From the NCBI RefSeq assembly GCF_009908265.2, contig NZ_JAAATX020000017.1, forward strand, positions 1 through 64,000: a DNA stretch of 64,000 nt, in the 5' to 3' direction. This document shows, piece by piece, positions 36,663 through 53,861 of the stretch (its first letter is position 1; every line of letters begins with the position of its first letter). The translations under genes and the position numbers were made by a program. The notes beneath the pieces were generated by a model. That model saw only the letters and a list, made by a program, of their open reading frames with translations. It did no database searches and was not told the origin of the DNA. The stretch is from Paragemmobacter amnigenus. GTDB taxonomy: Bacteria; Pseudomonadota; Alphaproteobacteria; Rhodobacterales; Rhodobacteraceae.

Positions 36663-37054
36663 GGCGCTGGCCTCCTGACAGGAGGCGTCACGCGCGTGGT
36701 GAAGCCATGATCCGCCAATGCGCCCAGCGCATCGTCCAGTGATCGTACCAGCGCCCAGCCAAAGCCCTGCGCTGTCACCTCATCACGAAACGCCTCCTGC
36801 GCTGGGCTCAGCCGACCCTTGAGGGACTTCAATTCGAGGAAGAGGACGCGCCCAGCGGAAAGCAACATCAGATCGGCAAAGCCAGGATGGACGCCCATGC
36901 CGACGAGGATCGCCTGCCGCTTTGCGCCCCGCGGGCCAGCCTCGGTGATCTCGTTTGGGCAATGGTGAATGATCGCGCCTTTGGGCAGCGCAAAACGCAG
37001 TGCCGTGACCACGGCACGCTGCAGGTCTGCCTCGGGTGTGCCGCGCCGCTTCAT
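36659..37054 (-). CDS. VRR-NUC domain nuclease
   Basis: 131 residues. The core PD-(D/E)XK-type VRR-NUC pattern is present: ADLQRAVVTALRFALPKGAIIHHCPNE early, then GFADLMLLSAGRVLFLELKSLKGRLSPAQEAF, with the D of GFADLM and the E-x-K of FLELK as active-site candidates. Phage VRR-NUC enzymes are structure-specific or Holliday-type nucleases used in recombination or replication. It overlaps both neighbours by four bases (ATGA), and is part of the replication operon. Confidence 0.85.
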   Translation of the reverse strand: MKRRGTPEADLQRAVVTALRFALPKGAIIHHCPNEITEAGPRGAKRQAILVGMGVHPGFADLMLLSAGRVLFLELKSLKGRLSPAQEAFRDEVTAQGFGWALVRSLDDALGALADHGFTTRVTPPVRRPAP

Positions 37055-38188: not shown

Positions 38189-39448
38189 ATGCCAACACGA
38201 GAACGCCTGACTGAGAAACTGGTCCGGGATGCCATCCCCGCCGAGGGACGGGATTACCAGATCTTCGATGACGATATCCGCGGCTTTGCGGTCTGCATAT
38301 ATCGGGGTGGCGGGCGCGCCTTCACCTTCGACTATCGCGTGGCTGGACGCCAGCGCCGGATGACTTTCGGGCGCTGGCCGGAATGGACCGTGACAGCTGC
38401 GCGCGACCGCGCACGCGCCTTGCGCCGAGAGGTCGACCTTGGTGGCGACCCGCTTGGCGAACGCGATCAGATCCGCGAGGCGGCACGCGTCAATGACTTG
38501 ATCGATCGCTATCTCAAGGAGCACTGCGTCCGGCTCGCACCGACGAACGCGTCCGACCAGAAATCCATGATGATGAAACTGGTCGCGCCGCACTGGGGCA
38601 AGAAGCTCGTCACAGAAATCACCAAGGCCGATGTCGAGAAGCTCCTCGCGAAGGTCGCGGAGGGCAGGGCGCGGCCCCATAAAGAAAAGCCGAACAATCG
38701 CGCTCGCAAGCTTCAACCCGCGCGACCCACGCCCGTGCGGGCAAACCGATTGGGGGAGGCGTTACGGAAGATGTTCAACCTTGCGGTCGAGTGGGAGATG
38801 CGCGCCGACAATCCGGCCAGCAGCTTCTATCGTCGGATCGAGAATGCCCGCGAACGCTTCCTGACCAAGGAGGAGATCGATCGGCTGGCCAAGGCGCTGG
38901 AGTCCGACGAGGATCAGCGTGCCGCGGGCATCATCCGGATGTGCCTCTTGACCGGTGCTCGAGTTGGCGAGGTCCGCCAGTCGCGCTTTGAGCAGTTCAA
39001 CCTTGAACTCGGCGTCTGGGCCAAGCCGGCCGCTACCACCAAGCAGCGCAAGGTCCACCGCGTACCGATCTCGGACGAGGTCGCGGCGATTGTGCGCCAG
39101 CGCCAGTTGCTGGTGCCAAAGGGCAATCCCTGGCTCTTTCCGGGCGACGTGCCGGGGCAGCCCGTGAAGGAAATCCGGCGGTTCTGGCGGCGCATGCAGG
39201 CGACCGCAGAGATTGGGGATGCGCGGATCCACGACCTGCGCCACACCTTCGCCTCGCTCCTCGTCAGCGGTGGGGCGTCGCTCGAGATGATCAGCAAGCT
39301 CTTGGGGCACACCCAGATGCAGACGACGCAGCGATACGCCCATTTGCTCGACGCCCCCCTGCGGGCCGGGCTCGATGCCGTGGCCAGTGCAGTCCGCCCA
39401 CGGCTGAAGGTGGTCCATGATCAGGATGCTGATAGGAAGAGCGCCTGA
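38189..39448 (+). CDS. Tyrosine integrase, P4-like with DUF4102 N-terminus
   Basis: 419 residues starting MPTRERLTEKLVRDAIP with AAAGGAGG at good spacing. N-terminal DUF4102-like domain (YQIFDDDIRGFAVCIYRGGGRAFTFDYRVAGRQRRMTFGRW), a core-binding helical part, then the catalytic domain: R in LTGARVGEVRQS, K in TTKQRKVHRVPIS, HDLRHTFASLL, GHTQMQTTQRYAHL with the catalytic tyrosine in the last. This is the P4-type integrase family, which commonly uses tRNA 3' ends. Followed by a terminator hairpin. It is probably the integrase of the prophage. Confidence 0.93.
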   Translation: MPTRERLTEKLVRDAIPAEGRDYQIFDDDIRGFAVCIYRGGGRAFTFDYRVAGRQRRMTFGRWPEWTVTAARDRARALRREVDLGGDPLGERDQIREAARVNDLIDRYLKEHCVRLAPTNASDQKSMMMKLVAPHWGKKLVTEITKADVEKLLAKVAEGRARPHKEKPNNRARKLQPARPTPVRANRLGEALRKMFNLAVEWEMRADNPASSFYRRIENARERFLTKEEIDRLAKALESDEDQRAAGIIRMCLLTGARVGEVRQSRFEQFNLELGVWAKPAATTKQRKVHRVPISDEVAAIVRQRQLLVPKGNPWLFPGDVPGQPVKEIRRFWRRMQATAEIGDARIHDLRHTFASLLVSGGASLEMISKLLGHTQMQTTQRYAHLLDAPLRAGLDAVASAVRPRLKVVHDQDADRKSA

Positions 39449-40214: not shown

Positions 40215-41219
40215 GTGGAGCCGACTATGGCCTTCCGAAAAGCACAGGAGCTGATCCGGCTGGCCGAGATGGCCGGCTCGCGATACCGCGGCGTATGCTT
40301 GAACGACGTCAGTGACGCTTTCGGTGTCAATCAGCGGACCGCCCAGCGCATGATGCGCGAGTTCGAGGAGGCGTTTCCGTCCTACATCTGCTCAACCGAC
40401 CGCGATCGGCGGCGGTGGTGGAAGCTGAGCGATACGACCTTGATGCACATGCAAGGTGTTCGCGCGAGCGAGCTTTCGGCCCTCGATATGGCCATCAAAC
40501 GTGCGCAGCACGAAGGCGCAGTCATGGATCTGCGGGGGCTGGTTTCTCTACGCGATCGGCTGCTGGCCAGCATGCCGTCCATTCATGCGCGAAAAACGGA
40601 GACTGATGCAGCCGCGATCCTCGAGGCGCAAGGTTTGGCATGTCGGCCCGGGCCGCAGGCAAAGCTTGCCCCCAACATTCTTGGGGCCATCGCCGAGGGC
40701 ATCAAGGCCCCATTCTCGATGGACATTGTCTATCAAGCCGCTCGAGATCCCGAGCCGCGCGTGCGGAAGGTTGAACCCTATGGACTTCTTCTGGGGACTC
40801 GGCAGTATCTGATCGCCAGGGACATCGAGAATGGCCGTGTTTACCGGCGGTACCGCATGGATCGGATCAGCAGCGCCAAGATCACAGGACAGTCCTTCCC
40901 CAGGGATCCCGACTTCGACCTCGACGCCTTTGCTGTCCAGGCCTTCGGGTCATACCATTCGGACGACGAGTACGGGCGCGTCGTGTGGAGGTTTGCGCCC
41001 AGCGCCGCCGCGGTTGCGCGGGAGTTTGAATTCCATCCGACGCAGCATGTGACCGATGAACCTGATGGCAGCTTGCGAGTCGAGTTCATGGCGTCAGGTT
41101 GGATTGAGATGGTTTGGCACCTCTACCAATGGGGCGATCAGGTCGAGGTAGTGGAACCTACAGCCCTCAGAAACCTAACAAAAGATTATGTGCGACGCGA
41201 CATAACGATACTACCCTGA
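40215..41219 (+). CDS. WYL-domain transcriptional regulator
   Basis: 334 residues. Winged HTH at residues about 15-75 (RYRGVCLNDVSDAFGVNQRTAQRMMREFEEAFP), then a WYL core around 165-230 (PRVRKVEPYGLLLGTRQYLIARDIENGRVYRRYRMDRIS, with QYL in place of WYL) and a C-terminal WCX-type extension (EFMASGWIEMVWHLYQWGDQVEVVEP). WYL regulators such as BrxR and CapW sit upstream of, and repress, antiphage operons. The gene precedes the Hsp70 operon in the same direction. Start is the GTG with AAGGA upstream; an ATG 12 bases later is also possible. Confidence 0.85.
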   Translation: MEPTMAFRKAQELIRLAEMAGSRYRGVCLNDVSDAFGVNQRTAQRMMREFEEAFPSYICSTDRDRRRWWKLSDTTLMHMQGVRASELSALDMAIKRAQHEGAVMDLRGLVSLRDRLLASMPSIHARKTETDAAAILEAQGLACRPGPQAKLAPNILGAIAEGIKAPFSMDIVYQAARDPEPRVRKVEPYGLLLGTRQYLIARDIENGRVYRRYRMDRISSAKITGQSFPRDPDFDLDAFAVQAFGSYHSDDEYGRVVWRFAPSAAAVAREFEFHPTQHVTDEPDGSLRVEFMASGWIEMVWHLYQWGDQVEVVEPTALRNLTKDYVRRDITILP

Positions 41220-41297
41220 TGCGCAATCGCTTGTGAGGTCCCAAGCTGTGATCGACCGGTCCAGAAATGCCGAAGTAACACGGAAAAATCCTGAGAT

Positions 41298-41321
41298 CCT
41301 GAGGCCAACATAGGCTTCAGG
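41298..41321 (+). promoter_or_regulatory. Leader hairpin before the Hsp70 operon
   Basis: CCTGAGGCC (41298-41306), loop AACATA, GGCTTCAGG (41313-41321) forms a 9-bp stem with one G-U pair, seven bases before an AAGGAGG ribosome site. It may be an operator for the WYL protein or an mRNA structure controlling the leader ORF. Confidence 0.45.
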
Positions 41322-41340
41322 GATGCAAGGAGGTACAAAG

Positions 41341-41376
41341 ATGTCATATAGCTACAGTCAGTCCGAATCTGACTAG
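41341..41376 (+). CDS. 11-codon leader ORF ending in amber, in frame with the GrpE-like gene
   Basis: ATG at 41341 with the best ribosome site of the operon (AAGGAGG at 41328-41334) reads MSYSYSQSESD and then TAG. The frame continues directly into the GrpE-like protein (TTG CAC AAA...). Either this is a short regulatory leader peptide, or the 5' end of the GrpE-like gene with a nonsense or recoded amber. The downstream ATG at 41401 has its own GAGG site. Confidence 0.55.
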   Translation: MSYSYSQSESD

Positions 41377-41400
41377 TTGCACAAAGCAGTCGAGGTCCGA

Positions 41401-41772
41401 ATGTCCGCAGGCGAAGAGAGTGTCGAAAAGTATAGATCCGCACTAATAGATGCGGCGGTCGAAGGGTGGCGTTTTTCAAGATTATTTTCGCGCCTTATTT
41501 CAAAATTGGATGCCGGTGAAAGCTCACGGTATCTAAGCCAGCAACGATACTTTCAGAAAAAGATCTCAGAGAGCCTCGAGGACGTAGGGTTAAAATTGGT
41601 CAATGTCGAAGGTCAGGTTTATGACCCTGGCATGGCAGCTACAGCATTGAACTTGGAGGACTTTGCTCCTCAAGACGTGTTGATGGTAGAGCAGATGGTC
41701 GAGCCCATCATAATGGATGCGAATGGACTGTGTCGATCCGGCACTGTGATGCTGATGCGGGTGGAAAAATGA
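41401..41772 (+). CDS. GrpE-like small protein
   Basis: 123 residues from MSAGEESVEKYRSALID with GAGG six bases upstream. A helical N-terminal half, then a beta-rich end: VNVEGQVYDPGMAATALNLEDF, VEQMVEPIIMDANGLCRSGTVMLMRVEK, which follows the order of the GrpE beta-domain (G-x-x-Y/F-D-P, then ...G.V.R...V). GrpE is the nucleotide exchange factor of Hsp70, and the next gene is an Hsp70, which supports the call. It is much shorter than true GrpE. The stop overlaps the Hsp70 start in ATGA. Confidence 0.6.
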   Translation: MSAGEESVEKYRSALIDAAVEGWRFSRLFSRLISKLDAGESSRYLSQQRYFQKKISESLEDVGLKLVNVEGQVYDPGMAATALNLEDFAPQDVLMVEQMVEPIIMDANGLCRSGTVMLMRVEK

Positions 41773-44261
41773 AGTATATTGGAATTGATCTAGGAACGAC
41801 AAACAGTGCCATTTGTTCGTATGATGGCGAGTCGGTTCGTCTCTATAAGAGCCCAGAGCAGCAGGATGTGACGCCATCCGCAATTTTCATCGATCGTCGA
41901 GGCAATAAGTACGTTGGCTCGCGTGCATATAATAATGCCGCAAGAAACCCAGACAATGCGGCAATATTATTTAAGCGCTTAATGGGTACAAGCACACCAG
42001 TAAAACTGCCCGCAGTTGATCTCGTGCTGACACCTGAAGAATGCTCGGCTGAGATACTGCGTGTTCTGTTTGGATATTTGCCGGAAGACATCCGGTCGAG
42101 CGGTGAAACTGGAACTGTAATTACAGTCCCAGCTGCATTTAACCAGATGCAGAAAGACGCCACCATGTCTGCCGCTGATGCTGCCGGCATTGGTCGAGTT
42201 GCACTCATGCAAGAACCCGTCGCTGCTGTGATGAGTGTAATGCAACAAAGAAAATCGGACGGTATCTTCCTTGTCTATGACATTGGTGGCGGGACGCTGG
42301 ATGTTGCTATCGCAGAGAGCATCGCTGGACGGGTAAATTTGTTGGCCCACGGTGGCATTGCTATGTGTGGCGGACGCGACTTTGATCGTATGCTCTTTGA
42401 TAACCTGGTCAAGCCATGGCTATTTGAAAATTTTGACCTACCGGAGGATCTATCGTCCAATCCAAACTATCGCCCATTATTGCGCATGGCTACATGGGCT
42501 GCGGAGAAGGCGAAGATCGAGCTGTCGCAACGCGACGATGTTACCATAAGTCTTCCGGAGACGGAGCTGGGTGTGCGTGACGCCTCCGGTGCCGAAGTCT
42601 ACATCGACATTTCGATAAAGCGTGGGCAATACGATAGTCTCATTTCGTCCAAAGTTGACGAGTCAATAGAAGCAACTAGGGAAGCTTTGGAGAAGGCTGG
42701 TCTCAGTCCACATGATGTTGAGCGCATTGTCTTCGTCGGGGGCCCCGCTCAATATAAGCCGCTTCGTGATAAGGTGTCCTTTGAGCTTGGGATTTCCGCT
42801 TCGACAGAAGTAAATCCAATGACTGCAGTCGCTGAGGGTGCGGCGGTCTTTGCGGAATCAATTGATTGGGCATCAAAGGGACGAGGCCGAAAGACCGCCA
42901 AGGGAGCTCTAAAGGCCGGAACGCAACTTGATTTGGCCTTCAATTATATCGCCAGAACACCAGAGTCTCGGACAAGGATCATTGCGAAATTGGGCGGTCC
43001 CGCACCCGCTGGTGTTGAGTTTCAAGTCGACAGCCTGGATACTGGGTGGTCTTCAGGAAGGTTGGCGCTTTCTGACGGAACCACGGTGGATCTCTTGCTG
43101 AGCAAGCCGGGGGAGAATCTGTTTAAGGTATTCCTGTTCGACTCCAATGGTGCTCCCCTTGTGCTTGAGGATAGCAAGATAATCATCACTCGTACGGCGG
43201 CGAGCATTGATGCCATACCTGCGTCACACTCTATTGGAGTAGAAGTACGGGAGAAAATGGGCGGAAGGCCCGTTCTGGCCTATTTGGTACGCGAAGGGGA
43301 TCAGCTGCCAAAAGCAGGAAGATTGAAGTTCAAAGCAGAAGAGTCACTGCGTTCGGGCAGCGCTGGTTCGATCAAGTTCAAAATCTGGGAAGGCGATATA
43401 CAGGATCCGATCAACGATAATCGATTTGTGGGTATGTTCGAGATTAAAGGTTCCGATTTCGACGAGGGGGTAATCGCTGCTGGGGCAGAGTTGATTTGCG
43501 ATTATGAAATACTCGATTCCGGAGCCGTCCGCCTTGAGGTAGAAGTTCCGTCAATCGGCGCCTCCTTTGAGAACAAAAGAAACTTCTACTCGAGCCAAGA
43601 AGGCAAAGTCGATTATTCCACCCAAGCCAAGCATATCATGGAGCAAACTGAACAGGCTCTCAATCGTGTTGACGAAATATCGGCCACGGTCCACGATGAA
43701 CGACTTGACCAAGCTCGCAGCCGGCTCGAGCGAGCTGCCACAATAAACCCAGATCACTCTGATCCCGAGAGTGCAAAGCAGGCGATGGATGATGTGCAAG
43801 AAGCAAAGCGCCTGCTTGCGCTCGCCCGAAGCAGCAATAAGAAACAAATTAGACAACTTGACCTCGGAAAAATAGTTTCAATATTTGACTCGATTGCTCG
43901 TCCAGTGGCACGTGCTACAGAGCTGCAAAGCTTTGAAAATTTGGCAAGAACTGCACAGCGCGCGATCGATAACAATTCAAACGATTTTGAAAGCCTGCTC
44001 GACGACATGCGTGGACGCTTTATGGCAATCCTTTGGCGTCAAGATGGCTTTGTTATTGATCGTTTTAGATGGCTTAGCGAAGACTATCACCAATTTCCTG
44101 ACCAACTCGAACACAAACAACTCGTCGCTGAGGGGGAGGCGGCACTCAAGAGCGATGATATTGAGAGGCTGAGAAACGTAGTGGCTCGGATGGACTCTGT
44201 TCGGCTCGGATCGGGTTCTGAGGATGACTTAATCGCTACGACTAACATTGTGCTGGGATAG
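41769..44261 (+). CDS. Hsp70 (DnaK-like) chaperone, extended
   Basis: 830 residues. Phosphate 1 motif IDLGTTNS (6-13), phosphate 2 VYDIGGGTLDV (169-179), adenosine motif IVFVGGPAQY (320-329) and the AEKAKIELS segment give a complete nucleotide-binding domain. An SBD-beta-like region follows around 500-650 (HSIGVEVREK, RLKFKAEESL, VGMFEIKG), then a long helical C-terminus with coiled-coil sequence. It is longer than DnaK (about 640) and is not the housekeeping copy: it lies in a mobile island between a GrpE-like and an AAA+ gene. Confidence 0.9.
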   Translation: MKYIGIDLGTTNSAICSYDGESVRLYKSPEQQDVTPSAIFIDRRGNKYVGSRAYNNAARNPDNAAILFKRLMGTSTPVKLPAVDLVLTPEECSAEILRVLFGYLPEDIRSSGETGTVITVPAAFNQMQKDATMSAADAAGIGRVALMQEPVAAVMSVMQQRKSDGIFLVYDIGGGTLDVAIAESIAGRVNLLAHGGIAMCGGRDFDRMLFDNLVKPWLFENFDLPEDLSSNPNYRPLLRMATWAAEKAKIELSQRDDVTISLPETELGVRDASGAEVYIDISIKRGQYDSLISSKVDESIEATREALEKAGLSPHDVERIVFVGGPAQYKPLRDKVSFELGISASTEVNPMTAVAEGAAVFAESIDWASKGRGRKTAKGALKAGTQLDLAFNYIARTPESRTRIIAKLGGPAPAGVEFQVDSLDTGWSSGRLALSDGTTVDLLLSKPGENLFKVFLFDSNGAPLVLEDSKIIITRTAASIDAIPASHSIGVEVREKMGGRPVLAYLVREGDQLPKAGRLKFKAEESLRSGSAGSIKFKIWEGDIQDPINDNRFVGMFEIKGSDFDEGVIAAGAELICDYEILDSGAVRLEVEVPSIGASFENKRNFYSSQEGKVDYSTQAKHIMEQTEQALNRVDEISATVHDERLDQARSRLERAATINPDHSDPESAKQAMDDVQEAKRLLALARSSNKKQIRQLDLGKIVSIFDSIARPVARATELQSFENLARTAQRAIDNNSNDFESLLDDMRGRFMAILWRQDGFVIDRFRWLSEDYHQFPDQLEHKQLVAEGEAALKSDDIERLRNVVARMDSVRLGSGSEDDLIATTNIVLG

Positions 44262-44265
44262 ACCC

Positions 44266-45702
44266 ATGGGGATGGATCCTTGGCTGCCGTTCGGATTTCG
44301 TGTCGGGCAGGGTGACAGTTCGCAGTCGCTTGAGTTGGCTGGTGCCAACTGGCAGATAATCAGGCTCAAGAGCAAGGATCGATGTTTGCTTGTGAAGCGT
44401 GACCTGCTCTCGAAATGGCAAGATGATGGACTTGTTGAGGATGGTATTTTCTTCGAGCTTGAGAACACGAGCCACGAGATTTGGTATGCGCTGAGCAGTT
44501 GGGATCGAACTCTATGTTCTGTCCAAGACGGAAAGGTCGTGAAGTCCAAATCCGTCGCGGCAGCTTTTGCGGTAGCATTGAAGGAGACACGCCAACTTGG
44601 TAGCCAATTCGGCTTTCAAGACGCCATATACTTTGAAAGGATAAGCAGGCTGTTGCCGACTTACACGGTCTCAGAGCGCGCGTCGGATGAGGATGTTCTC
44701 GGGCGTTGGCTGACTGGAGGAGTTCACATCTCTGCTTCAGCCGTTCGGCGTATGGATCAGGCTATGGCTTGGCTTAACGAGCGTGAGATCCGACAGGTTT
44801 TGGCGTACGCAGGGATTGCGCCATCAGAAGTGCTGCCAGGCACATCTCCTTCTGATATTGAACTGACGACCAACGAGGTTGTTGCTTCGGAGGCCGCCAT
44901 CTCGAGCGATGTCACGCGCGCGCGCCTGGACACATTTGAGCTGCCAGGCCGGCCACAATTGGCGGCTTTTTTCAATGAGCATGTCATTGATATTGTGAGA
45001 AATCAGGAACGGTATCGCGCTGTAGGGATCGACTTTCCGTCGGCTATGATTTTGCATGGGCCTCCCGGGTGCGGAAAGACCTTTGCTGTTCATAAGCTGA
45101 TCGATTTTCTGGGCTGGCCAAGCTTCGAGATCGATGCATCTAGCGTTGCTAGCCCATATATTCATGAGACGAGCAAGAAGGTCGCTCAGGTATTCACTGC
45201 TGCGATAGAAAAGTCACCTTCGGTTCTGGTGATCGACGAGATGGAGGCCTTCCTTGCCGATCGAGATATGGGGTCAGGTCACCATCGGGTTGAGGAGGTT
45301 GCAGAGTTTTTACGACGCATTCCTGAAGCCATTGAGAACAATGTTTTGATCATCGCAATGACTAACAGAATCGATTTGATTGACCCAGCGATTCAAAGGC
45401 GCGGTCGTTTCGACCACATAATCGAAGTCGATTTTGCAAACGCGGAAGAAATAACGTCTCTTCTCAAGAACTTGCTGAAGTCGTTGCCAACGGCTGACGA
45501 TGTTAACGTCGAACTGCTTGCGGACGAGCTGTCAGGGCGCCCGCTTTCCGATGTATCCTTTGTGGTACGTGAGGCGGCTCGACTTACGGCGCGTGAGGCG
45601 CTTCCTCTAATCGACCATGCGATGCTCATGTCTGCTCTACGTGTAGTTCCGGCTAGGGACCGAGAAGGCGGTAAGAGAAAGCACAAGATCGGCTTCATCT
45701 GA
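44266..45702 (+). CDS. AAA+ ATPase with unknown N-terminal domain
   Basis: 478 residues. The N-terminal 220 residues are an uncharacterised beta/alpha region. The AAA+ core has Walker A GPPGCGKT (265-272), Walker B SVLVIDEMEAF (about 319-329), sensor-like IAMTNRIDLIDPAIQRRGRFDHI with the arginine-finger box RRGRFDH (378-384), and a C-terminal alpha-lid. It resembles Cdc48/FtsH/FIGNL-type AAA proteins acting on protein substrates. Four bases separate it from the Hsp70 stop. The gene is AT-richer than the phage genes. It may unfold or remodel a substrate together with the Hsp70. Confidence 0.88.
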   Translation: MGMDPWLPFGFRVGQGDSSQSLELAGANWQIIRLKSKDRCLLVKRDLLSKWQDDGLVEDGIFFELENTSHEIWYALSSWDRTLCSVQDGKVVKSKSVAAAFAVALKETRQLGSQFGFQDAIYFERISRLLPTYTVSERASDEDVLGRWLTGGVHISASAVRRMDQAMAWLNEREIRQVLAYAGIAPSEVLPGTSPSDIELTTNEVVASEAAISSDVTRARLDTFELPGRPQLAAFFNEHVIDIVRNQERYRAVGIDFPSAMILHGPPGCGKTFAVHKLIDFLGWPSFEIDASSVASPYIHETSKKVAQVFTAAIEKSPSVLVIDEMEAFLADRDMGSGHHRVEEVAEFLRRIPEAIENNVLIIAMTNRIDLIDPAIQRRGRFDHIIEVDFANAEEITSLLKNLLKSLPTADDVNVELLADELSGRPLSDVSFVVREAARLTAREALPLIDHAMLMSALRVVPARDREGGKRKHKIGFI

Positions 45703-45714
45703 GGGTTCTTAAAT

Positions 45715-46359
45715 ATGAGTGGGTCTGAGAATCAGAATGAGACGCCCAAGGGCTTTGCGGGTCTTGGATCATTAGTCTCAAAGATTGACGCCGGTCAGGC
45801 AGAAAGAGAAAAGTCACCAGCAAAGTCGAGCGAGCCTGTGGCTGCCTCTGGTGGCGCAGGGTCCGAACCTGCTTCCCAGTCCAGACCTCATCCTATTCCT
45901 CTGCGGCAGACCTCTGAGCCTGTACGACCTAGAGAGGCAGCTCCTAATTCATCCGCTACGAAAAAATGGCTCCTCGCCGCAGTATGTTTTGGCGGCGTGG
46001 TTTGGTGGCTCAACGAGAACCCGGGCTCATCCGGAACACAGACTCGCCCCTCTGGTTCATCAACGACCACCGCGATTCCAACGAGGCCAGCAGAGGTTCG
46101 CCCGCCAATTGGTGACAATAACGTGCTGTCGATGACCCAGTTGCATTACTGTTTAGCAGAGGACATTCGGCTTGATGGAGCCAGGTCTTCGCTGAACAAC
46201 TACAGTGGTGCGGATGTGGATCGTTTTAATGTGATGATTTCTGACTACAACAGCCGGTGCGGCAGTTTTAGGTATCGGAGCGGCGACCTCGAGCGCGCTC
46301 GCAGAGCTGTTGAGGCATTCAGAAGCACAATTTTGGCTGAGGGAAGAAGTAGGTTCTGA
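45715..46359 (+). CDS. Single-pass membrane protein with conserved DYNSRC domain
   Basis: 214 residues. A disordered, proline/serine-rich N-terminal tail (residues 1-83), one membrane segment (84-99, WLLAAVCFGGVVWWLN), another proline/serine/threonine linker, then a globular end: LSMTQLHYCLAEDIRLDGARSSLNNYS, VDRFNVMISDYNSRCGSF, a pattern of conserved cysteines and aromatic residues. I recognise the fold only as a small periplasmic-type domain of unknown function. It is fourth in the Hsp70 operon, 12 bases after the AAA+ gene, and could anchor the complex in the membrane. Confidence 0.7.
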   Translation: MSGSENQNETPKGFAGLGSLVSKIDAGQAEREKSPAKSSEPVAASGGAGSEPASQSRPHPIPLRQTSEPVRPREAAPNSSATKKWLLAAVCFGGVVWWLNENPGSSGTQTRPSGSSTTTAIPTRPAEVRPPIGDNNVLSMTQLHYCLAEDIRLDGARSSLNNYSGADVDRFNVMISDYNSRCGSFRYRSGDLERARRAVEAFRSTILAEGRSRF

Positions 46360-46377
46360 TGGGAGCGAGGTGCTGGA

Positions 46378-48381
46378 ATGGCTAAGGCAGTGTGTTTCAA
46401 ATGTGGCTCTCAAAAGCATGGAGCGCTTCTTAACTGTCCTTCTTGCCAAGCAATGCCTCGAGATAATCAAGAGGTGACGCTGTCTTTGGCGCTCTCTGAG
46501 CCACTGTCGAATGCATCTGAACTTGAAAAGTACTCGACAGCTATTCGAAACTCAGGCCGCCCCGCGGTTCCTGGTGCGGTCCTAGCAGCGGCGGCGGAAG
46601 CCCTTTCGGACCCCCAATTGCGAGAGCTATTGGCTGAGCGAAGGGCTGCAAGTTCCAGCCCCCTGGGTGCGGCGTCTCACCAAGAGCCCAAGCGGGTAAA
46701 CGCTGCAGCCCCAACCATTCAGCACCAACGACACGTTTACAGGCTTCAGTCGTCGGCGCTTCATCGTTCGCCGTTTGCTGTACTTGGTGCAACTATTCGA
46801 GATGACCGACGGGCTATAGTCGAGTTAGCTGAGAACAAGTCGCTGGAGTTGGATCACGACGAATGCCAAAGGGCTAGGTCGGAGCTCACTAATACACGAA
46901 CGCGCCTTCTAACAGAGATTGCTTGGCTTCCCGGCGTTTCGCCGCGCAGAGCAACGGAATGTTTGCGGCTTCTTTCAAGTGATGCGCTCGCTGTACGTGA
47001 TGAAACAAACCTCCCGACTCTTGCTAAAGCCAACCTTTGGTCCTCAGCTTTGAGCGCGGTATCTGTTGATCATGATGACTCAGATTTAACTGAGTTCATC
47101 GTTGATTTCGCATTTTTGGTTGATGAGCTTGATGCGGACGAGGTGCTGCGTGACATCAATGAAGATAGACAAGTGTCGGGCTTTCCGATCATCCAGAGCA
47201 TAGAGCATATCGAAAGTGCTCTCGGTGAGCGCCGCAAGTGCTATCGTGAAGCTATCAAGGATTGTCTTGATAAATTCCCACCAGCAAGACTGGTGAATTT
47301 GATGACTGAATTGGTTGATACCACAACATACAGTGGTGAAGAGAGCGCCCCAAGTCTTGTTGACGACTTGGTCGATAGCTATGAAACCGAGACTCGAGTG
47401 GTTCTTCAATCAGAGCTCGAGAACATTAACGCTTTGGTCGGAAAGGTTAGAGCTGTCGCTGGGAGAGGCGAGAGTACAGTAAATTCAAACATCGATGAGT
47501 TGATTGCAGTCGCAAGAAATTGGGACAAGATTGCGCAGCCGATCCAGCTTAGCGCAAAGGCTCGAGGTACAACCCATGCCGCGAGCTTCGAAACGGCTCG
47601 TGTCCTCCGAGATCTGGCGATCGATCTTTTCAACGACAATGGATTGCTTGAGCAGTCAAAAAGATTGACTGAACTGTCACAGGAGCTTTTCGCTGAATTG
47701 CCGGAGTTTGCAGAGCATCTTGAGCGCGATGCAGAAGCACTGTCGAACCTTGCTTTGCAAAAGGCTCAAGCCGAGGCGGACCATGCACAATGGGAACGTG
47801 ATATCCGTTATGAAGTAGATGTTGGTGCAGTATTCAAGGAGACGCTTAAGATCTCGTCGGCAGGCGTTTCCTGGAAAGGGAAGAACTATCCTCTTGACGC
47901 GATCACTCGTGTTCGATGGGGTGGGGTGAGCCACTCAGTTAATGGAATTCCTACCGGCACGAACTTTACCGTGGCGTTTGGCGATAGGAACTCAGAGGCC
48001 GTTGTCCACATTAAACGGAAAGAGACCTACCAAACTTTTGTTGATAAGCTTTGGCGGGCCGTTGGGGTCAGGCTCATCTCCGAAATGCTTCAAACGCTGA
48101 AAGCTGGTCGCAGCTTGAGTTTTGGTCGTGCCACCGTCTTTGACGATAAAATTCAGTTAGAGCGCCATAGATTTCTTGGTGCGAATGAGCCTGTGATTCG
48201 GACTTGGTCTCAGGTGCAGATTTGGAATGCGGATGGTTCCTTTTTCGTTGGCGATAAAGACGACAAGAAAGTGTACGTGGGTCTCTCATACATCGATGTA
48301 GCGAACACACATCTTTTGGAGCAAATAATTCGGATGAAATTCAAGAAGGCTGGAAGCAGATTAAGCGATCTAATTGCGTAG
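46378..48381 (+). CDS. Zinc-ribbon and degenerate J-domain protein with PH-like C-terminus
   Basis: 667 residues. An N-terminal zinc ribbon (C6, C9, C20, C23) is followed by a disordered stretch, then residues 129-190: SPFAVLGATIRDDRRAIVELAENKSLELDH...LLTEIAWLPG, the helical plan of a J domain but without the HPD motif. A long helical middle (about 190-480) follows and then beta-rich sequence (KGKNYPLDAITRVRWGG, TGTNFTVAFG, VHIKRKETYQTFVDKLWRAVG) reminiscent of PH-like domains. It likely scaffolds the Hsp70 and AAA+ proteins. Classical J function is unlikely because HPD is absent. Confidence 0.65.
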   Translation: MAKAVCFKCGSQKHGALLNCPSCQAMPRDNQEVTLSLALSEPLSNASELEKYSTAIRNSGRPAVPGAVLAAAAEALSDPQLRELLAERRAASSSPLGAASHQEPKRVNAAAPTIQHQRHVYRLQSSALHRSPFAVLGATIRDDRRAIVELAENKSLELDHDECQRARSELTNTRTRLLTEIAWLPGVSPRRATECLRLLSSDALAVRDETNLPTLAKANLWSSALSAVSVDHDDSDLTEFIVDFAFLVDELDADEVLRDINEDRQVSGFPIIQSIEHIESALGERRKCYREAIKDCLDKFPPARLVNLMTELVDTTTYSGEESAPSLVDDLVDSYETETRVVLQSELENINALVGKVRAVAGRGESTVNSNIDELIAVARNWDKIAQPIQLSAKARGTTHAASFETARVLRDLAIDLFNDNGLLEQSKRLTELSQELFAELPEFAEHLERDAEALSNLALQKAQAEADHAQWERDIRYEVDVGAVFKETLKISSAGVSWKGKNYPLDAITRVRWGGVSHSVNGIPTGTNFTVAFGDRNSEAVVHIKRKETYQTFVDKLWRAVGVRLISEMLQTLKAGRSLSFGRATVFDDKIQLERHRFLGANEPVIRTWSQVQIWNADGSFFVGDKDDKKVYVGLSYIDVANTHLLEQIIRMKFKKAGSRLSDLIA

Positions 48382-48403
48382 CACTCATGGCGCGGAGGAC
48401 TAA

Positions 48404-49057
48404 ATGAAGTTTCTGTCGAAAATCTTCGGATCGGGGTCACAAAACAAACCTGATGCCGTGCTAAGAGAGGCGTTTGGAAAGATCCAAAAAATTATTGACG
48501 ACGAAGATTTCCAGCTTGAGTTGGTAAACCCTGCTATCCGAGATGTCTTGAAATCTTCGCCTGCATACGATCGTAAACCAGATGGCGTAGGTGCTTTTGG
48601 TTTTGTTGAGACGAACCCTGTTCCTGTCAATGGTCCAATTGGCGAGATCGCCTACCTTTCTCGACTCGAGGCGGGACCAGGGAAGCGCTTGATGTTCCAT
48701 CGCCTTGGGTCGATACAGATGGTCGATGTATTTGAAGCGGTTACTTTCGACGGAAGCCAGTGGTTTATTCTTTATCTGGATATGTATCACTCTCGGAGAT
48801 CAAAGCTAGCACCGGATGGCTTGCGCTTCACGCAGGAGGTTGCGCAGTTTTCCGGTTTCAGTCAGCACTGTAAAAATTTCCCATATGATTTTGTGGAAAT
48901 GAAGACGGCGCAGCAGCAGTCTGGTTTAAGCTTGGCATACATTCCTATCAGTAAGGTGGCAGATGCTCTCGAGAAACGTGTTTTCAAGAGGCCAATTGCG
49001 CACAACGCAAAACTTGAAATCCTTAGCCAGCGACTGACCCGCTTCGGCCAACTGTGA
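48404..49057 (+). CDS. Unknown protein, last gene of the Hsp70 operon
   Basis: 217 residues, MKFLSKIFGSGSQNKPDAVLREAFGKIQKIIDDEDFQLELVNPAIRDVLKSS. Alternating helices and strands (WFILYLDMYHSRRSKLAPDGLRFTQEVAQFSGFSQHCKNFPYDF) but no catalytic motif I recognise. It starts 22 bases after the zinc-ribbon gene and is followed by the 190-base gap that ends at the tRNA fragment, so it closes the operon. The operon's final gene may be the effector, but nothing in its sequence shows how. Confidence 0.55.
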   Translation: MKFLSKIFGSGSQNKPDAVLREAFGKIQKIIDDEDFQLELVNPAIRDVLKSSPAYDRKPDGVGAFGFVETNPVPVNGPIGEIAYLSRLEAGPGKRLMFHRLGSIQMVDVFEAVTFDGSQWFILYLDMYHSRRSKLAPDGLRFTQEVAQFSGFSQHCKNFPYDFVEMKTAQQQSGLSLAYIPISKVADALEKRVFKRPIAHNAKLEILSQRLTRFGQL

Positions 49058-49243: not shown

Positions 49244-49290
49244 GGCTCATAACCTGAAGGCCGCAGGTTCAAATCCTGCCCCCGCAACCA
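49244..49290 (+). other. 3' fragment of initiator tRNA-fMet, attachment-site footprint
   Basis: From the anticodon loop CTCATAACC on, the sequence matches the 3' half of bacterial tRNA-fMet, including the T arm (GCAGG TTCAAAT CCTGC) and the CCCCGCAACCA end. The 5' half is missing: preceding bases are unrelated and the 5' anticodon strand does not pair. It is therefore the distal attachment copy left by integration into a tRNA-fMet gene. The terminator follows at 49305. Confidence 0.8.
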
Positions 49291-50890
49291 TCAAAACCCT
49301 ACACAAGCCACCGTTCGCGGTGGCTTTTGCATTCGTAGCCCCCAGTGCAAATTCCAGCACCGATGCCAGCGCGCCATAAAGCGTCACGCTGGCCGGTCCC
49401 CGCTTCGCTCCTGCCGCGACCTCAATACGCTGCACGAGGCTGCGGATGATCTCCATCGCCTGCAAGCGGGTCGCTTCATCAAGGAGCAGACGGTTCATCT
49501 CTTGCACTTTGCGGCGATAGAGCTCGCCGAGGTTCGGGTGGATCTCTAGAGTTGGGGTTGGGCTCGCCATGCTGAGCTGGCGCTCCAGATCGCGTTTGCG
49601 CGCCTCGAGCTCTTTGAGCTTATGGCGCACGCTCCCCGGATCGCCGTCGCCCTCGAGGATGAAGGCCAGCGCGCGCTCGATGCTGCGCGAGACTTTCTCC
49701 AACTCCTTTTGCAGGACAGGGCGGTTGTCTGTTCTGCTGCGACGCTGCCGTTCCACTTCCGCCCGGAAGCTTGCCGCGAACTCGGCGATCAGATCGTCGC
49801 GGCCAAGGAGGATCTGCTCCAAGGCGGTGAGAATGCGCGTCTCAAGCTCGGCCGCGCTGATGCTGACGGGACAAGAGCAGGTGCCGCGCTCGCGCCTCGC
49901 CGAGCAGGAATACCGTTCGCGGTTGATGATCGTCATGGCCCCTCCGCAGCCGGCGCAGCGCACGAGGCCGGACAAGAGGCGCTTCTTCGTCTGGCGCTTG
50001 TTCCCGGCGCGGGAGGAATAGCGGGCGCGAAGCGCTTGGGCAGCATCCCAGGTCGCGTCGTCGATGATGCGGAGCTCTGGCACCTCCTTGGTGATCCAGA
50101 GATGTTCAGGGTTGGGCCGTGAGACTCGTTTTGCGGTATCCGGGTCTTTGACGAAGCGCTGGCGGTTATAGGTGATGCGGCCAAGGTAGAGCGCGTTGTT
50201 CAGGATGCCGTTCTGGCGCTGCCGGCTGCCGTTGATCGTGGAGGCGTTCCACAGGCCGCCGCGGGGGCTCGGGATGCCTTGCTGGTTCAAGCTGGCGGCA
50301 ATGGCGCGCGGCGTTTGGCCTGCGACGTAATCGTCGAAGATCTGGCGAATAACCTTGGCTTCATTGGGATCGAGTTCCCGTTCACCTCTGACGAGGTCGC
50401 CGTCAGTGCCGATGCGCCGAACCATGCGGTAGCCGTAGCTATTGCCCCCGGGGATGCGACCGGCTTCGACCCGACCCCGTTGGCCCCGACGTGTCTTCTC
50501 GGCAAGGTCCTTCAGGAAGAGAGCGTTCATCGTGCCTTTAAGCCCGACGTGAAGCTCGTTGATCTCGCCTTCGGCCAGAGTGATCAGTTTGACTTCTGCG
50601 TGGGTGAGCCGCTTGTAGATGGCGGCCACGTCTTCCTGGTCCCGGCTTATCCGGTCGAGCGCCTCGGCGATCACCACATCGAAGCTGCCCGCGCGGGCAG
50701 CGTCCATCAGCGCGAGCATCCCGGGCCGCGTGCGCAGGCTGCTGGCGCTGATCGCATAGTCGCTGAAGACCTCCACCACCTCGTGTCCGAGCGCTGTCGC
50801 ACGCTCCCGGCAGAGGCGCACCTGGTCATCGATCGACGCGGCCGACTGAAGGTCCGATGAATAACGAGCGTAGATCGCAGCACGGGTCAT
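49247..50890 (-). CDS. Large serine recombinase
   Basis: 547 residues. N-terminal catalytic domain YARYSSDLQSAASIDDQ (catalytic serine at about 11), RTRPGMLALMDAARAGSFDVVIAEALDRISRDQED, the recombinase domain (GQTPRAIAASLNQQGIPSP), a zinc ribbon (RCAGCGGA, ...CSCPVS) and a coiled-coil tail, all typical of large serine integrases and related recombinases. The last 30 residues (ANGGLCRVLMVAGAGFEPAAFRL) are encoded by the tRNA terminator and tRNA fragment, so the gene reads into the attachment site. It overlaps the upstream tyrosine recombinase by four bases. Confidence 0.9.
   Translation of the reverse strand: MTRAAIYARYSSDLQSAASIDDQVRLCRERATALGHEVVEVFSDYAISASSLRTRPGMLALMDAARAGSFDVVIAEALDRISRDQEDVAAIYKRLTHAEVKLITLAEGEINELHVGLKGTMNALFLKDLAEKTRRGQRGRVEAGRIPGGNSYGYRMVRRIGTDGDLVRGERELDPNEAKVIRQIFDDYVAGQTPRAIAASLNQQGIPSPRGGLWNASTINGSRQRQNGILNNALYLGRITYNRQRFVKDPDTAKRVSRPNPEHLWITKEVPELRIIDDATWDAAQALRARYSSRAGNKRQTKKRLLSGLVRCAGCGGAMTIINRERYSCSARRERGTCSCPVSISAAELETRILTALEQILLGRDDLIAEFAASFRAEVERQRRSRTDNRPVLQKELEKVSRSIERALAFILEGDGDPGSVRHKLKELEARKRDLERQLSMASPTPTLEIHPNLGELYRRKVQEMNRLLLDEATRLQAMEIIRSLVQRIEVAAGAKRGPASVTLYGALASVLEFALGATNAKATANGGLCRVLMVAGAGFEPAAFRL
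49305..49328 (+). terminator. Terminator of the tRNA fragment
   Basis: AAGCCACCG, loop TTCG, CGGTGGCTT followed by TT gives a 9-bp stem with a stable tetraloop, the classic 3' terminator of a tRNA gene. It still belongs to the tRNA-fMet copy and lies inside the antisense recombinase reading frame. Confidence 0.7.
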
Positions 50891-51984
50891 GCGGGTCTCC
50901 CATCTGTCTTATGGCGAAGTATCTTGCGGGCTTGAGCTACGGATGTGCGCAACCGGCGGCCGGCGACTATTTGGTTAGCTTGGATGTAGTGGGACTCAGA
51001 TGTCCGCGGATCAACGTGGCCGAGTAGGGGCGACACGATCCCAATGTGCTCGGGATCTTCAAGAGCGACAAATGTGGCTGCACAATCGCGGAACAGGTGC
51101 GGATTGATCGAGCGTCCAAAGGCGCGCTCGGTTGTCCTTGTGATCGCCAAGTGCATCGCCTTTGCGTTCATCGGTTCACCATAGCGCGTAATCCAAAGTC
51201 GTGAGCTGCTTCGGCCAACCAAAAGATCAGAGCGAACAATACTGGTGTAATGCTCGATGTAGGGGGTGAGGCCGGCCGATACGGGCGCTGAGAAGGGGTG
51301 CCCGGTCTTCATCTCCATGGCGGCGAAGCGCAAGAAGTACACCGTACCTTGCCTAACCAAATGCCGATCGAGTTGGATCATGGTCAGGTTGGACAGCCGC
51401 ACTGGGCAGCAAGCGAGGATGCCAATCATGAGGGCATCCCGATAAGCGCCTGGCGCATCCCTTTTGGGCGGGTTCTCGATAATGTCGCGCATGCGGTTCA
51501 AAGCCCAGTCGAGCAAATGATGTGCCGGCTGCAACCGGCTCAGCTTGTGGCGCCGGTCGACCACTTGCCGCTCTTGGTATCGCACAGCACGTTGCAGCCA
51601 CTTGAAATCTTTGCCAGGCGCCATGGCCTGAGCAACGGCCAGCAGCTCTGCAAGGCGACCCCAAAGCGTCCAGCTGCCAACCTCCTGCGATTGCAGCTCC
51701 TCGATATAGGGCCGGATCGCGTCGGGATCGATGCGGTCCGTAGGATCATCGACCGTGGCTCGCAGCCTGCCACTTCGGGCGAGGAAGGTTAGCCACCGGC
51801 CATAACCCTTACGGTACTTCGAACGCGTCTCATCCCGCCAATGAAAGCCTGGTCCGACGGTGCCATCCAACACATCTCCAGGCGACAGGGCTGCCTCCCA
51901 CGCAGCTCTATCCTCGGATGGCCAAAGATGGAGTGGAAGGCAACGTCGTGCTGGATCCTCGAATGGGTGGAGTTTGTCAGCCAT
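50887..51984 (-). CDS. Tyrosine recombinase (second of pair)
   Basis: 365 residues from MADKLHPF. Catalytic-type residues: R in CCPVRLSNL, HLFRDCAATF (H-x-x-R), GHVDPRTSESHYI with the tyrosine. The N-terminal 110 residues (DETRSKYRKGYGRWLTFLARSGRL) are a core-binding-like domain. It overlaps both neighbours (eight bases with the upstream gene, four with the serine recombinase), so it is made with them. The gene belongs to a class of paired/triple recombinases found in integrative elements rather than phage integrases. Confidence 0.85.
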   Translation of the reverse strand: MADKLHPFEDPARRCLPLHLWPSEDRAAWEAALSPGDVLDGTVGPGFHWRDETRSKYRKGYGRWLTFLARSGRLRATVDDPTDRIDPDAIRPYIEELQSQEVGSWTLWGRLAELLAVAQAMAPGKDFKWLQRAVRYQERQVVDRRHKLSRLQPAHHLLDWALNRMRDIIENPPKRDAPGAYRDALMIGILACCPVRLSNLTMIQLDRHLVRQGTVYFLRFAAMEMKTGHPFSAPVSAGLTPYIEHYTSIVRSDLLVGRSSSRLWITRYGEPMNAKAMHLAITRTTERAFGRSINPHLFRDCAATFVALEDPEHIGIVSPLLGHVDPRTSESHYIQANQIVAGRRLRTSVAQARKILRHKTDGRPA

Positions 51985-53695
51985 GCTTGCCCGCACGGTC
52001 CTTGAGGCGGTCGCGCGCCGCTGCGACTGAGGCTTGATAGTGACGGACCGCATTCTTTTGTTCAAACTGCGCATAGGACTTCATCGCGGTTTGCAGTGTG
52101 TCTCCGATCGCGTGGCCCAAGGTCACGAAGTCGCCAGGGTGAATCATGCAGTGGATTTTGCCGGCGATGCTCCGGAACAGATGCGCGTGTACGACTAGCC
52201 CCGTGTGCTCGTAGATCATCTCCTTGATAAGAGCGGACAGATTGGCTGCGAACTTGGGGCCACCCGATCGGTTGGGAAAGACATACTCCGAAGGGCTTTC
52301 GATCAGCCAAGGCCGATAGTCCCTCATGTACAGGTCGTACAGGCGCAGAGTCTCGCCCGTAAGCTCATATGAAAGGCTCCTGTTGTTCTTGACCTCCTCG
52401 CCGGGGATGGACAGCAACAAACAAGACTGTCCCTTCACCTCGGTACGCCGCACATGGCGTTCGAAGCTGAGACGGCTCAGGTTCCCAATGCGCATCGGAG
52501 CATGCAGTAGGATCTCGATGGCAAGCGCCGCCTGCAACAGGAGCGCGCGCCGTTGTGGGCGGAGAGCCTTGTTCGCTGCCAATTGAACCAGACGACTTGG
52601 CAGTTGGAGCAGGTTTGCGAGGTTGCGGTCGTCGTCAAGTTGTTCGAGACGTTCCTGGTTCTTAGCGCGGACCACGGTCGTCCCATTGGCCAGACGAGTG
52701 CAAAGCGATCGAATCTCTTCAAGATGCGCCGCATCGACCTTCACGCCATATCGCGCGATGGTCTTCACGCAGGTTGCGAGCTTATGCGTACTCTCGGTTG
52801 GTTTGCCGCCGAAGCGGCTCATGTAGAAACGCAGACCTGCCTTCAGCTTCGTCAAATCCACAAGGCAGGCGAGCTCGGTTATCTCTTCGATTGGAGTTCC
52901 GCTCCGCACGATCGCCGAAGCCACCTGTTGGATGTTGAAGCGCTGGTGCTTTAGTGTCGCCGGCCGAAGTGGCTTAGCTGGACCTTCGCCAGTCAGTGGG
53001 TCCGGTTGGGCCAGCCGGTCGATCCAACGAGCAACGTCCGCTTGGAAAGAGGCCGGAAAAGCTTCGATCGGGAAGGTCCATCGATCTCGTCTGTACGGAA
53101 ACCCCAGCGGCCGTTGTGGCCAATCAGCCCTGGTACGGCAGAGCCTGTTCCAGGTCGCAACGGTTGCGCTTACTTTGGCATCCGGCCTGTCGGTAAAGGT
53201 CTCGTTGGCGATGGCGTCCCTAAGTGCTCTTGCATGCTCGTCGCGGACTTGATCCGGCGAAACGTTCAGCGCGCTGCAGTACTGTGCCAGTTGTGTCAGC
53301 TTCCATACGTCATGTCTGTCTGGTAACCGAGCGAGAATATCCGCCCAAGCGGGCGACGGCGGGCTAAGCCAATCGGACCGGGCCCGAGATGCACCACAAA
53401 GCTCCAAAGCCTTAATGACACCAGCGCGGATGTTCTTTAACCGCTTCTCCGACAGTCCAGCCTGCGCAGGATGTACCCGGCGAAAGCGCACGTGCACCCA
53501 GTTGATGTTGGCCGGGACGCCGCTCGGATCCTGCCCGATTAGACGGCACAGCGACTGAACGGCGGACTTCAAGTCTCGTCGTTGGGTAGGCGTGACATTG
53601 ACCGCTTCGAGTTGGTCGAGAACCTTGTCCATCATCATCGCATCCGCCTTGATGAATGGGCTCAATTCCAGCGATGGTTTAGATGCTGCTGTCAT
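51977..53695 (-). CDS. Tyrosine recombinase (first of pair), long
   Basis: 572 residues from MTAASKPSLELSP with GGAG at good spacing. A long N-terminal region (about 270 residues) precedes a core-binding domain and a catalytic domain containing R (APMRIGNLSRL), HAHLFRSIAGKIH and GHAIGDTLQTAMKSYAQF with the tyrosine. The order and the tandem arrangement with the next recombinase are reminiscent of RIT or Tn554 elements. It is the first of the overlapping recombinases. The upstream ORF extension to 53854 is not used because it has no ribosome site. Confidence 0.85.
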   Translation of the reverse strand: MTAASKPSLELSPFIKADAMMMDKVLDQLEAVNVTPTQRRDLKSAVQSLCRLIGQDPSGVPANINWVHVRFRRVHPAQAGLSEKRLKNIRAGVIKALELCGASRARSDWLSPPSPAWADILARLPDRHDVWKLTQLAQYCSALNVSPDQVRDEHARALRDAIANETFTDRPDAKVSATVATWNRLCRTRADWPQRPLGFPYRRDRWTFPIEAFPASFQADVARWIDRLAQPDPLTGEGPAKPLRPATLKHQRFNIQQVASAIVRSGTPIEEITELACLVDLTKLKAGLRFYMSRFGGKPTESTHKLATCVKTIARYGVKVDAAHLEEIRSLCTRLANGTTVVRAKNQERLEQLDDDRNLANLLQLPSRLVQLAANKALRPQRRALLLQAALAIEILLHAPMRIGNLSRLSFERHVRRTEVKGQSCLLLSIPGEEVKNNRSLSYELTGETLRLYDLYMRDYRPWLIESPSEYVFPNRSGGPKFAANLSALIKEMIYEHTGLVVHAHLFRSIAGKIHCMIHPGDFVTLGHAIGDTLQTAMKSYAQFEQKNAVRHYQASVAAARDRLKDRAGKHG

Positions 53696-53861
53696 CAGGT
53701 GGGCTCCAAATTGGACATCAGTTGCATCGGGTGGACAGGGCTGGTCAGGGTGACTGCTTCGGGACAGCGTAACACAATAATCGGGCAGTGATTGCAGCGC
53801 ACCGTTGTCCCGACGGGAACGCAACCCATTGCCATCATTGGACAATCTGGCCATCGGCTGG

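Follow-up and report, generated by a model that had tools for sequence, protein, structure and literature searches.

Most of the known defences of prokaryotes respond to DNA, to RNA or to particular phage proteins. In this work we describe an operon centred on an Hsp70 in a 64,000-nucleotide stretch of the Paragemmobacter amnigenus genome (contig NZ_JAAATX020000017.1, positions 1 to 64,000; hereafter, the window). We consider it a mobile, self-contained protein-remodelling system with a predicted role in defence against phages or plasmids, a reading to which we assign a probability of about 60%. Its six genes (41401-49057) are labelled G, H, A, M, J and U and encode, in that order, a GrpE-fold protein, the Hsp70, an AAA+ ATPase, a probable membrane protein, a zinc-ribbon adaptor and an optional protein without a family name.

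Judging from the available portions of the sources, the nearest published counterparts of this cassette are the GAP1-N2 GTPase systems and the Hsp70-like parts of CoCoNuT systems. The accessible text on the former describes conflict systems that include HSP70, GrpE and also a protein fused to DnaJ (PMC7159879). The cassette resembles them in having Hsp70 and GrpE in a predicted conflict operon, whereas it carries a Cdc48-type AAA+ ATPase and a putative envelope protein instead, and no GAP1-N2 GTPase, vWA or FNIII domain was matched by Pfam in seven window proteins at E ≤ 1. An Hsp70-like protein in a restriction context, CnuD, is known from CoCoNuT type III and NxD McrB systems, and its Walker-A-like motifs are described as degenerate in the part of the report available (PMC11090510). 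In contrast, the window Hsp70 has intact catalytic residues, and neither McrB nor McrC was matched in the same seven proteins at E ≤ 1.

The DnaK-DnaJ-GrpE chaperones with ClpB also bring together an Hsp70, a GrpE-fold exchange factor and an AAA+ protein. The cassette differs from them in having a Cdc48-type AAA+ protein and not ClpB, an adaptor without the HPD motif, a membrane partner and mobility, and its Hsp70 has lost R167, N170, Y145 and T173 (DnaK numbering) and carries an extra region before the substrate-binding domain (SBD). IetAS, which consists of the AAA+ ATPase IetA and the protease IetS, shares a related AAA domain (PADLOC IetA, 2e-28), although A scores 95 bits against an NCBIfam IteA cut-off of 510, and no protease was matched by Pfam at E ≤ 1 among the operon proteins. 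Participation of a chaperone in sensing a phage protein is the point of likeness to CmdTAC and bNACHT25 which, in the available accounts, use the chaperone CmdC and host DnaJ, respectively, whereas the cassette has a dedicated Hsp70 cycle. Finally, tLST, whose composition includes HSP20, is alike in being a set of mobile proteostasis genes. The cassette has no HSP20 nearby (0 of 15 HSP20 genes in 10 carrier genomes) and does have defence neighbours, and identity with tLST was rejected on the HSP20 result.

For M, J and U, PADLOC returned nothing at E ≤ 1; its matches to G and H were at chance level, and those to A and to the WYL regulator that precedes the operon were all generic. In addition, NCBIfam gave no over-cut-off name for any of the six operon proteins. 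No published description of the set was found among the literature matches listed, which included few subscription papers, and the word Hsp70 is absent from the available text of a paper on Tn7-like cargo (PMC8649781) and, by its listing, from that on DefensePredictor (PMC13092281). An earlier note on this DNA knew of no described defence system of this composition, and our searches agree; with literature mostly outside subscription journals and a PADLOC release of 2023, a recent description under another name has about one chance in five.

The conserved G-H-A-M-J operon is a real unit. Profile hidden Markov models built for this analysis found J at 47 loci including the window, some of them near-copies. 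G-H-A lies upstream of J in 34 of 35 counted loci (32 of the 33 with at least 6 kb upstream, together with two that have less and in which G was detected), the exception being locus L018, where A alone is present. M is near J in 31 of 35 loci, standing after it in L005, L033, L044 and L045 (Vibrio, Burkholderia, Marinobacter and an uncultured gammaproteobacterium); the 4-base overlap of G and H recurs in 29 of 34 loci, and U follows J in 22 of the 42 that have room for it. The hosts are mostly Proteobacteria, with two Nitrospira-type bacteria and a few metagenome-assembled genomes titled as other phyla. A longer operon continues after U in L002 (16048-19855) and also in L010, L012, L014, L016, L025 and L038, its products comprising a 164-residue secreted-looking protein, an M-like protein, a 217-residue protein, an RDD membrane protein and a small membrane protein. 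Duplication of the adaptor and membrane parts is also possible: at L031 (8584-16793), the first set is followed by another J and additional copies of M.

J was found in 1 of the 195 genomes of a search among relatives, namely the window's own, and the AAA+ profile at E ≤ 1e-120 was found in 2 of 385 genomes of the window's class, the window's own among them. A tblastn search with J gave 7 matches in 72,556 plasmid records and no homologue in 50,697 phage records, and pattern-limited scanning yielded at least 40 loci in 84,980 species genomes and, separately, at least 2 in viral contigs. A near-identity search with the E. coli cassette found it in 2 of 5,426 genomes: a complete G-H-A-M-J in strain HeN100 (NZ_CP044443.1, 4115537-4122320; L181) and, in strain NH-21, the 3' half alone, cut off beside IS1.

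The set is additional to the housekeeping chaperones. Exactly one canonical GrpE above the Pfam cut-off was present in each of the 28 carrier genomes checked, and all 10 carriers checked for it have a canonical DnaK besides the cassette Hsp70 (the Marinobacter DnaK frame contains one TGA). The earlier note had named discovery solely as part of a conserved housekeeping or stress locus as an outcome that would speak against a defence role; that outcome was not seen. The carriers are Tn7-like elements, plasmids of the MOBH, MOBP and MOBQ types and chromosomal islands; more specifically, Tn7-like elements with annotated Tns proteins carry the cassette on Shewanella and Aeromonas plasmids, and in Polaromonas (L004) it sits on an IncP/MOBH plasmid. 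Of 36 genome pairs compared, 20 have a higher identity between their cassette Hsp70s than between their native DnaKs, as between Comamonas and Pseudomonas paracarnis (95% and 71%, respectively), Sinimarinibacterium and P. paracarnis (90% and 70%), and Aeromonas and Comamonas (87% and 72%).

We analyzed the neighbouring genes with PADLOC (2023), using 114 of 273 neighbour proteins (at least 200 residues, nearest, within 2.6 kb, and including some longer-operon genes), with the neighbours of the window, L003, L048 and L049 excluded. The control comprised 108 of 226 proteins from one 18-kb region, chosen by position, in each of 20 carrier genomes. With thresholds of E ≤ 1e-10 and E ≤ 1e-50, the neighbours matched 159 and 26 models, respectively (25 of the latter listed, with 12 names), including PDC-S37 (3 proteins), Shango SngC and Hhe (2 proteins each), type I restriction and methylation subunits, TmtA, LmuB (Lamassu), GajB, AbiEii and PDC-M65B; integrase (5) and ResIII (5) proteins also occur among the 114. 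The control matched 42 models at E ≤ 1e-10, with 6e-39 the best among the 25 listed and with generic names (UvrD-type, IetA/AAA, WYL, DolB and BrxL), and no control model at E ≤ 1e-50 is expected because the rows were ordered by member number and then by E-value. Estimated from family rows, on the assumption that families do not share proteins, at least 10 distinct neighbour proteins carry such matches and no control protein does (10/114 vs 0/108, p ~0.001). Ten neighbour proteins were inspected singly: five were such strong members (SngC from L033 and from L044, LmuB from L018, REase_I from L028, MTase_I from L016), two had weaker matches and three had no match. The predicted enrichment in defence islands was borne out, with 26 models against none seen among the control rows listed for random regions of the 20 carrier genomes, and the cassette's location among defence genes goes beyond that of random genome regions.

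Individual loci show the same kind of setting. In Polaromonas (L004), ZorA, OmpA, EH-signature and SNF2 genes lie on one side of the cassette and BREX-annotated genes on the other; in E. coli HeN100, RADAR rdrB, an intervening insertion sequence and a dptF remnant adjoin an open G-H-A-M-J. As a separate observation, genes for related helicases and BrxD-like ATPases lie close to the cassette in three distant loci (L033, L044 and Polaromonas L004), and the helicase of L033 and L044 scores as SngC.

The cassette Hsp70 matches the DnaK nucleotide-binding domain at E 4.6e-81, and the same comparison shows a weak second stretch bearing on the substrate-binding beta domain. For SBDbeta, hhalign gave a probability of 62% (E 7.7e-5, 97 columns), with three unrelated profiles on the same target reaching at most 0.7%. 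We aligned the cassette family with native DnaK/HscA proteins, anchoring the numbering on the NEPTAA motif; 1 of 15 native loci was missed by the motif used, leaving 14, and the broken Hsp70 gene of Aeromonas pKAM471_1 was excluded from the counts. The catalytic residues D8, T11, K70 and E171 are retained in all 35 cassette Hsp70s. At four other positions, all 35 differ from DnaK (R167 to A or V, N170 to Q, Y145 to A or S, T173 to V or I), and the native proteins retain the DnaK residues there in 14 of 14. Y145, N170 and T173 of DnaK take part in DnaJ binding. D35 of the HPD motif bonds R167 and Q378 of DnaK according to the available part of PMC8215388, and changes of R167 disrupt J-domain action according to that of PMC7289447. 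With its catalytic residues intact and the HPD-contact residue lost, the cassette Hsp70 appears to run a private, rewired chaperone cycle. In pKAM471_1 (L003), the Hsp70 gene is split into two annotated pieces and the remaining cassette is open.

The HPD motif is also missing from the adaptor, being found in 0 of 45 J proteins and absent from that of E. coli HeN100. The earlier note had read J as a zinc-ribbon protein with a degenerate J domain. The pattern PF.VLG..RDDRR.I.E.AE..SL looks suggestive by eye; in addition to the HPD result, however, hhalign against a J-domain profile gave 1.0%, with five unrelated profiles at 0.04-0.87% against the same J profile, and Pfam DnaJ was absent among the 25 of 51 families listed for J. 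The J domain is unproven, and we did not adopt it. The rest of the composition claimed in that note (Hsp70, AAA+, membrane protein, zinc ribbon and, by fold, GrpE) stood. The loss of HPD in J fits the loss of R167 in H: if J activates H, another contact would be used. A second candidate, two PH domains in J, was set aside too: the first beta domain has modest PH-type matches, and the two are unlike by profile (hhalign 0.2%). Searched with the whole J model, Foldseek listed nothing at E ≤ 0.001, and the helical part of J matched designed and repeat proteins, which gave no name; a PDB sequence search with G, J and U returned no row better than E 0.28. The adaptors of L006 and L007 were excluded from A5, A7 and A11, and L047 from A7, and identical rows were removed.

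G has the GrpE fold, with helices and a beta head. The window protein has no match to Pfam GrpE at E ≤ 1, and 12 of 34 members do (best 0.005), all short of the cut-off. The best PDB match of A is NVL (4.5e-63), and its AAA domain belongs to the NVL/VCP clade; it has an N-terminal domain without a named family and a C-terminal IGF tail, IGF being invariant in 39 rows. IGF tails are linked to ClpP. M is probably a single-pass membrane anchor: the hydropathy of its segment is 1.2 in the window copy and 1.5-2.4 in most of 43 homologues. The window has a short form without a peptidoglycan-binding tail, and Pfam PG_binding_1 was found in a relative. The outer part of M is its variable portion, and M is the likely sensor or anchor.

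Table 1. Features of the operon and its surroundings in the window (coordinates in nucleotides unless residues are given).
Feature	Position	Strand	Evidence or remark
Tyrosine integrase, left of operon	38189-39448	+	Pfam Phage_integrase 2e-25
WYL/WCX regulator	40215-41219	+	Pfam WYL 3e-10, WCX 6e-13; local gene
G, short GrpE-fold protein (123 residues), presumed nucleotide-exchange factor	41401-41772	+	
H, Hsp70 (830 residues)	41769-44261	+	Pfam HSP70 2e-57
H domains	residues 1-376; ~380-480; ~480-591		ATPase; extra region; SBDbeta-like; then C-terminal part
A, classical Cdc48/NVL-type AAA+ ATPase	44266-45702	+	Pfam AAA (PF00004) 7e-31
M, probable single-pass membrane protein	45715-46359	+	comparison of 43 homologues
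M features	near residue 80 (hydrophobic segment)		cytosolic KGFAGLGSLVS motif; one hydrophobic segment; FNVMISDYNSRC stretch
J, zinc-ribbon adaptor	46378-48381	+	
J regions	residues 3-30; ~132-181; 189-476; 478-575; 580-656		zinc ribbon; J-like without HPD; helical; beta domain (PH-like); beta domain
U, 217-residue protein without family name, optional part	48404-49057	+	
3' half of tRNA-Met(CAT), attachment-site footprint	49244-49290	+	identical sequence in two intact tRNA genes elsewhere in this genome

The gene positions, order, rightward direction and spacings given in the earlier note all held, with an overlap of 4 bases between G and H and successive gaps of 4 (H-A), 12 (A-M), 18 (M-J) and 22 (J-U) bases. 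The ATG of G was picked from the alignment, a TTG at 41377 being a possible alternative. The operon is AT-richer than its surroundings, as had been claimed (G+C content 0.48-0.55 vs 0.57-0.67 in the 10 kb on each side, in 2-kb windows), and the integrase reported to its left is a tyrosine integrase. What did not survive was the role of the WYL regulator as guard of the system: the other 48 loci scanned have no homologue at E ≤ 1e-5, and we rejected it as a system member. In L012, L013, L016 and L027, a small protein, DNA-binding-looking by eye, is encoded 13-28 bases before G and is possibly a local regulator in place of WYL.

The tRNA-fMet attachment footprint also proved real, although ARAGORN listed no tRNA in the window and Rfam no RNA family at E ≤ 1 within 34-60 kb: two intact tRNA-Met(CAT) genes, each on another contig that ends at or just past the tRNA, have a 3' half identical to its 47 bases. 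The footprint overlaps the end of a serine recombinase gene. About 22 kb around the operon looks accessory, because matches to three same-genus genomes stop at ~33.33 kb on the left and resume on the right at 55.24 kb in one such genome and at 55.06 kb in a second, where its own contig begins. No genome with both flanks joined was found, and no attachment repeats of at least 18 bases bracketed the operon convincingly within 32-60 kb. A 19-base near-repeat (95%) at 33381-33399 and 51514-51532, possibly a product of chance, has its left copy slightly within the left boundary of the accessory region. The serine recombinase and two divergent tyrosine recombinases stand in a row at 49247-53854 (-), the serine recombinase gene ending inside the footprint, and the end of contig C18 has a stretch with 65% DNA identity to that gene near an intact tRNA-Met(CAT). 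Among phage-like genes left of the integrase, a small VRR-NUC nuclease-like protein (36659-37054, -) falls just below the Pfam cut-off.

Because the set travels and recurs in many bacteria beside known anti-virus genes, it is probably an undescribed defence system. This reading builds on the parts and their order, the mobility, the defence context, the conserved catalytic sites, the probable membrane anchor and the lost HPD/R167 pair. For the interactions between the parts, the trigger and the outcome, we infer the following scheme. J and M would keep the machine on the inner side of the envelope. On phage or plasmid entry, H would bind a foreign protein that is exposed or on its way in, or else M at its conserved cytosolic motif, so that proteins of the invader, or a change in M, would supply the clients. 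J would then trigger ATP hydrolysis by H by way of an HPD-independent contact, G would reset the nucleotide on H, and the Cdc48-type ring A, perhaps with the host peptidase ClpP via its IGF tail, would pull the bound complex apart, and the invader would fail to enter, replicate or assemble. More tentatively, the cassette might represent a new immunity class, an envelope-tethered Hsp70 machine with its own exchange factor, an HPD-independent activator and a Cdc48-type unfoldase, in which invaders would be recognised by protein state (unfolded or incoming), not by nucleic acid, and then disassembled.

Several observations weigh against the defence reading. The native DnaK is more alike than the cassette Hsp70 in 16 of the 36 genome pairs, as between Comamonas and Burkholderia (82% and 69%, respectively) and between two Pseudomonas (90% and 77%); for near relatives, this too departs from descent with the host. 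The neighbourhood control was random genome sequence and not other islands, and part of the excess may reflect island location. A is evidently not needed in every case, since plasmids of Aminobacter, Pseudomonas hygromyciniae and Sinorhizobium carry a smaller form, J-G-H, with no A-like gene next to it. Finally, no nuclease or toxin is recognisable in the operon, which makes the effector step a guess.

A mobile stress-tolerance locus of the tLST kind is an unlikely alternative, even though Hsp70, exchange factor and AAA+ are parts typical of a disaggregase and tLST shows, in the available parts of PMC8290217 and PMC8407380, that such loci travel: none of the 15 HSP20 genes in 10 carriers lies near the cassette, many neighbours are defence genes, and the J-contact site of the cassette Hsp70 is lost, unlike that of the native DnaK/HscA proteins compared.

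We also think it rather improbable that the cassette is a chaperone-guarded abortive system, in which H, G and A would keep M (or U) folded, inserted or turned over, and phage proteins occupying the chaperone would free M, with membrane harm and cell death, as CmdC releases CmdT. Precedents exist in the portions available of reports on CmdTAC, where a phage capsid protein triggers chaperone release (PMC11618068), and on bNACHT25, whose sensing needs DnaJ (PMC12169576), and in M a conserved cytosolic motif precedes the membrane segment. However, peptidoglycan-binding tails make M look like an anchor or sensor and not a toxin, and scans of the window's operon proteins and of relatives revealed no toxin domain. 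Moreover, M-type domains are fused to J in one lineage: the Aminobacter J protein carries the membrane segment, YNSRC-type stretch and peptidoglycan-binding domains that elsewhere form M, and its tblastn matches span both the J and M genes in Shewanella, Aeromonas and Vibrio. It is very improbable that the cassette helps to maintain or transfer the plasmids and Tn7-like elements that carry it, the defence genes nearby being mere co-travellers, since despite the presence of the cassette on plasmids and in transposon cargo and of several recombinases beside it in the window, the carriers differ in kind and no recombinase cluster is common to more than 4 loci.

Collectively, a whole Hsp70 cycle and an unfoldase appear to have been captured for conflict. 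If this is true, the cassette would provide a naturally occurring Hsp70 that is no longer activated through the HPD-R167 contact, and would make it testable whether HPD is the only Hsp70 trigger; the complete copy in E. coli HeN100 puts such a test within reach in laboratory E. coli.

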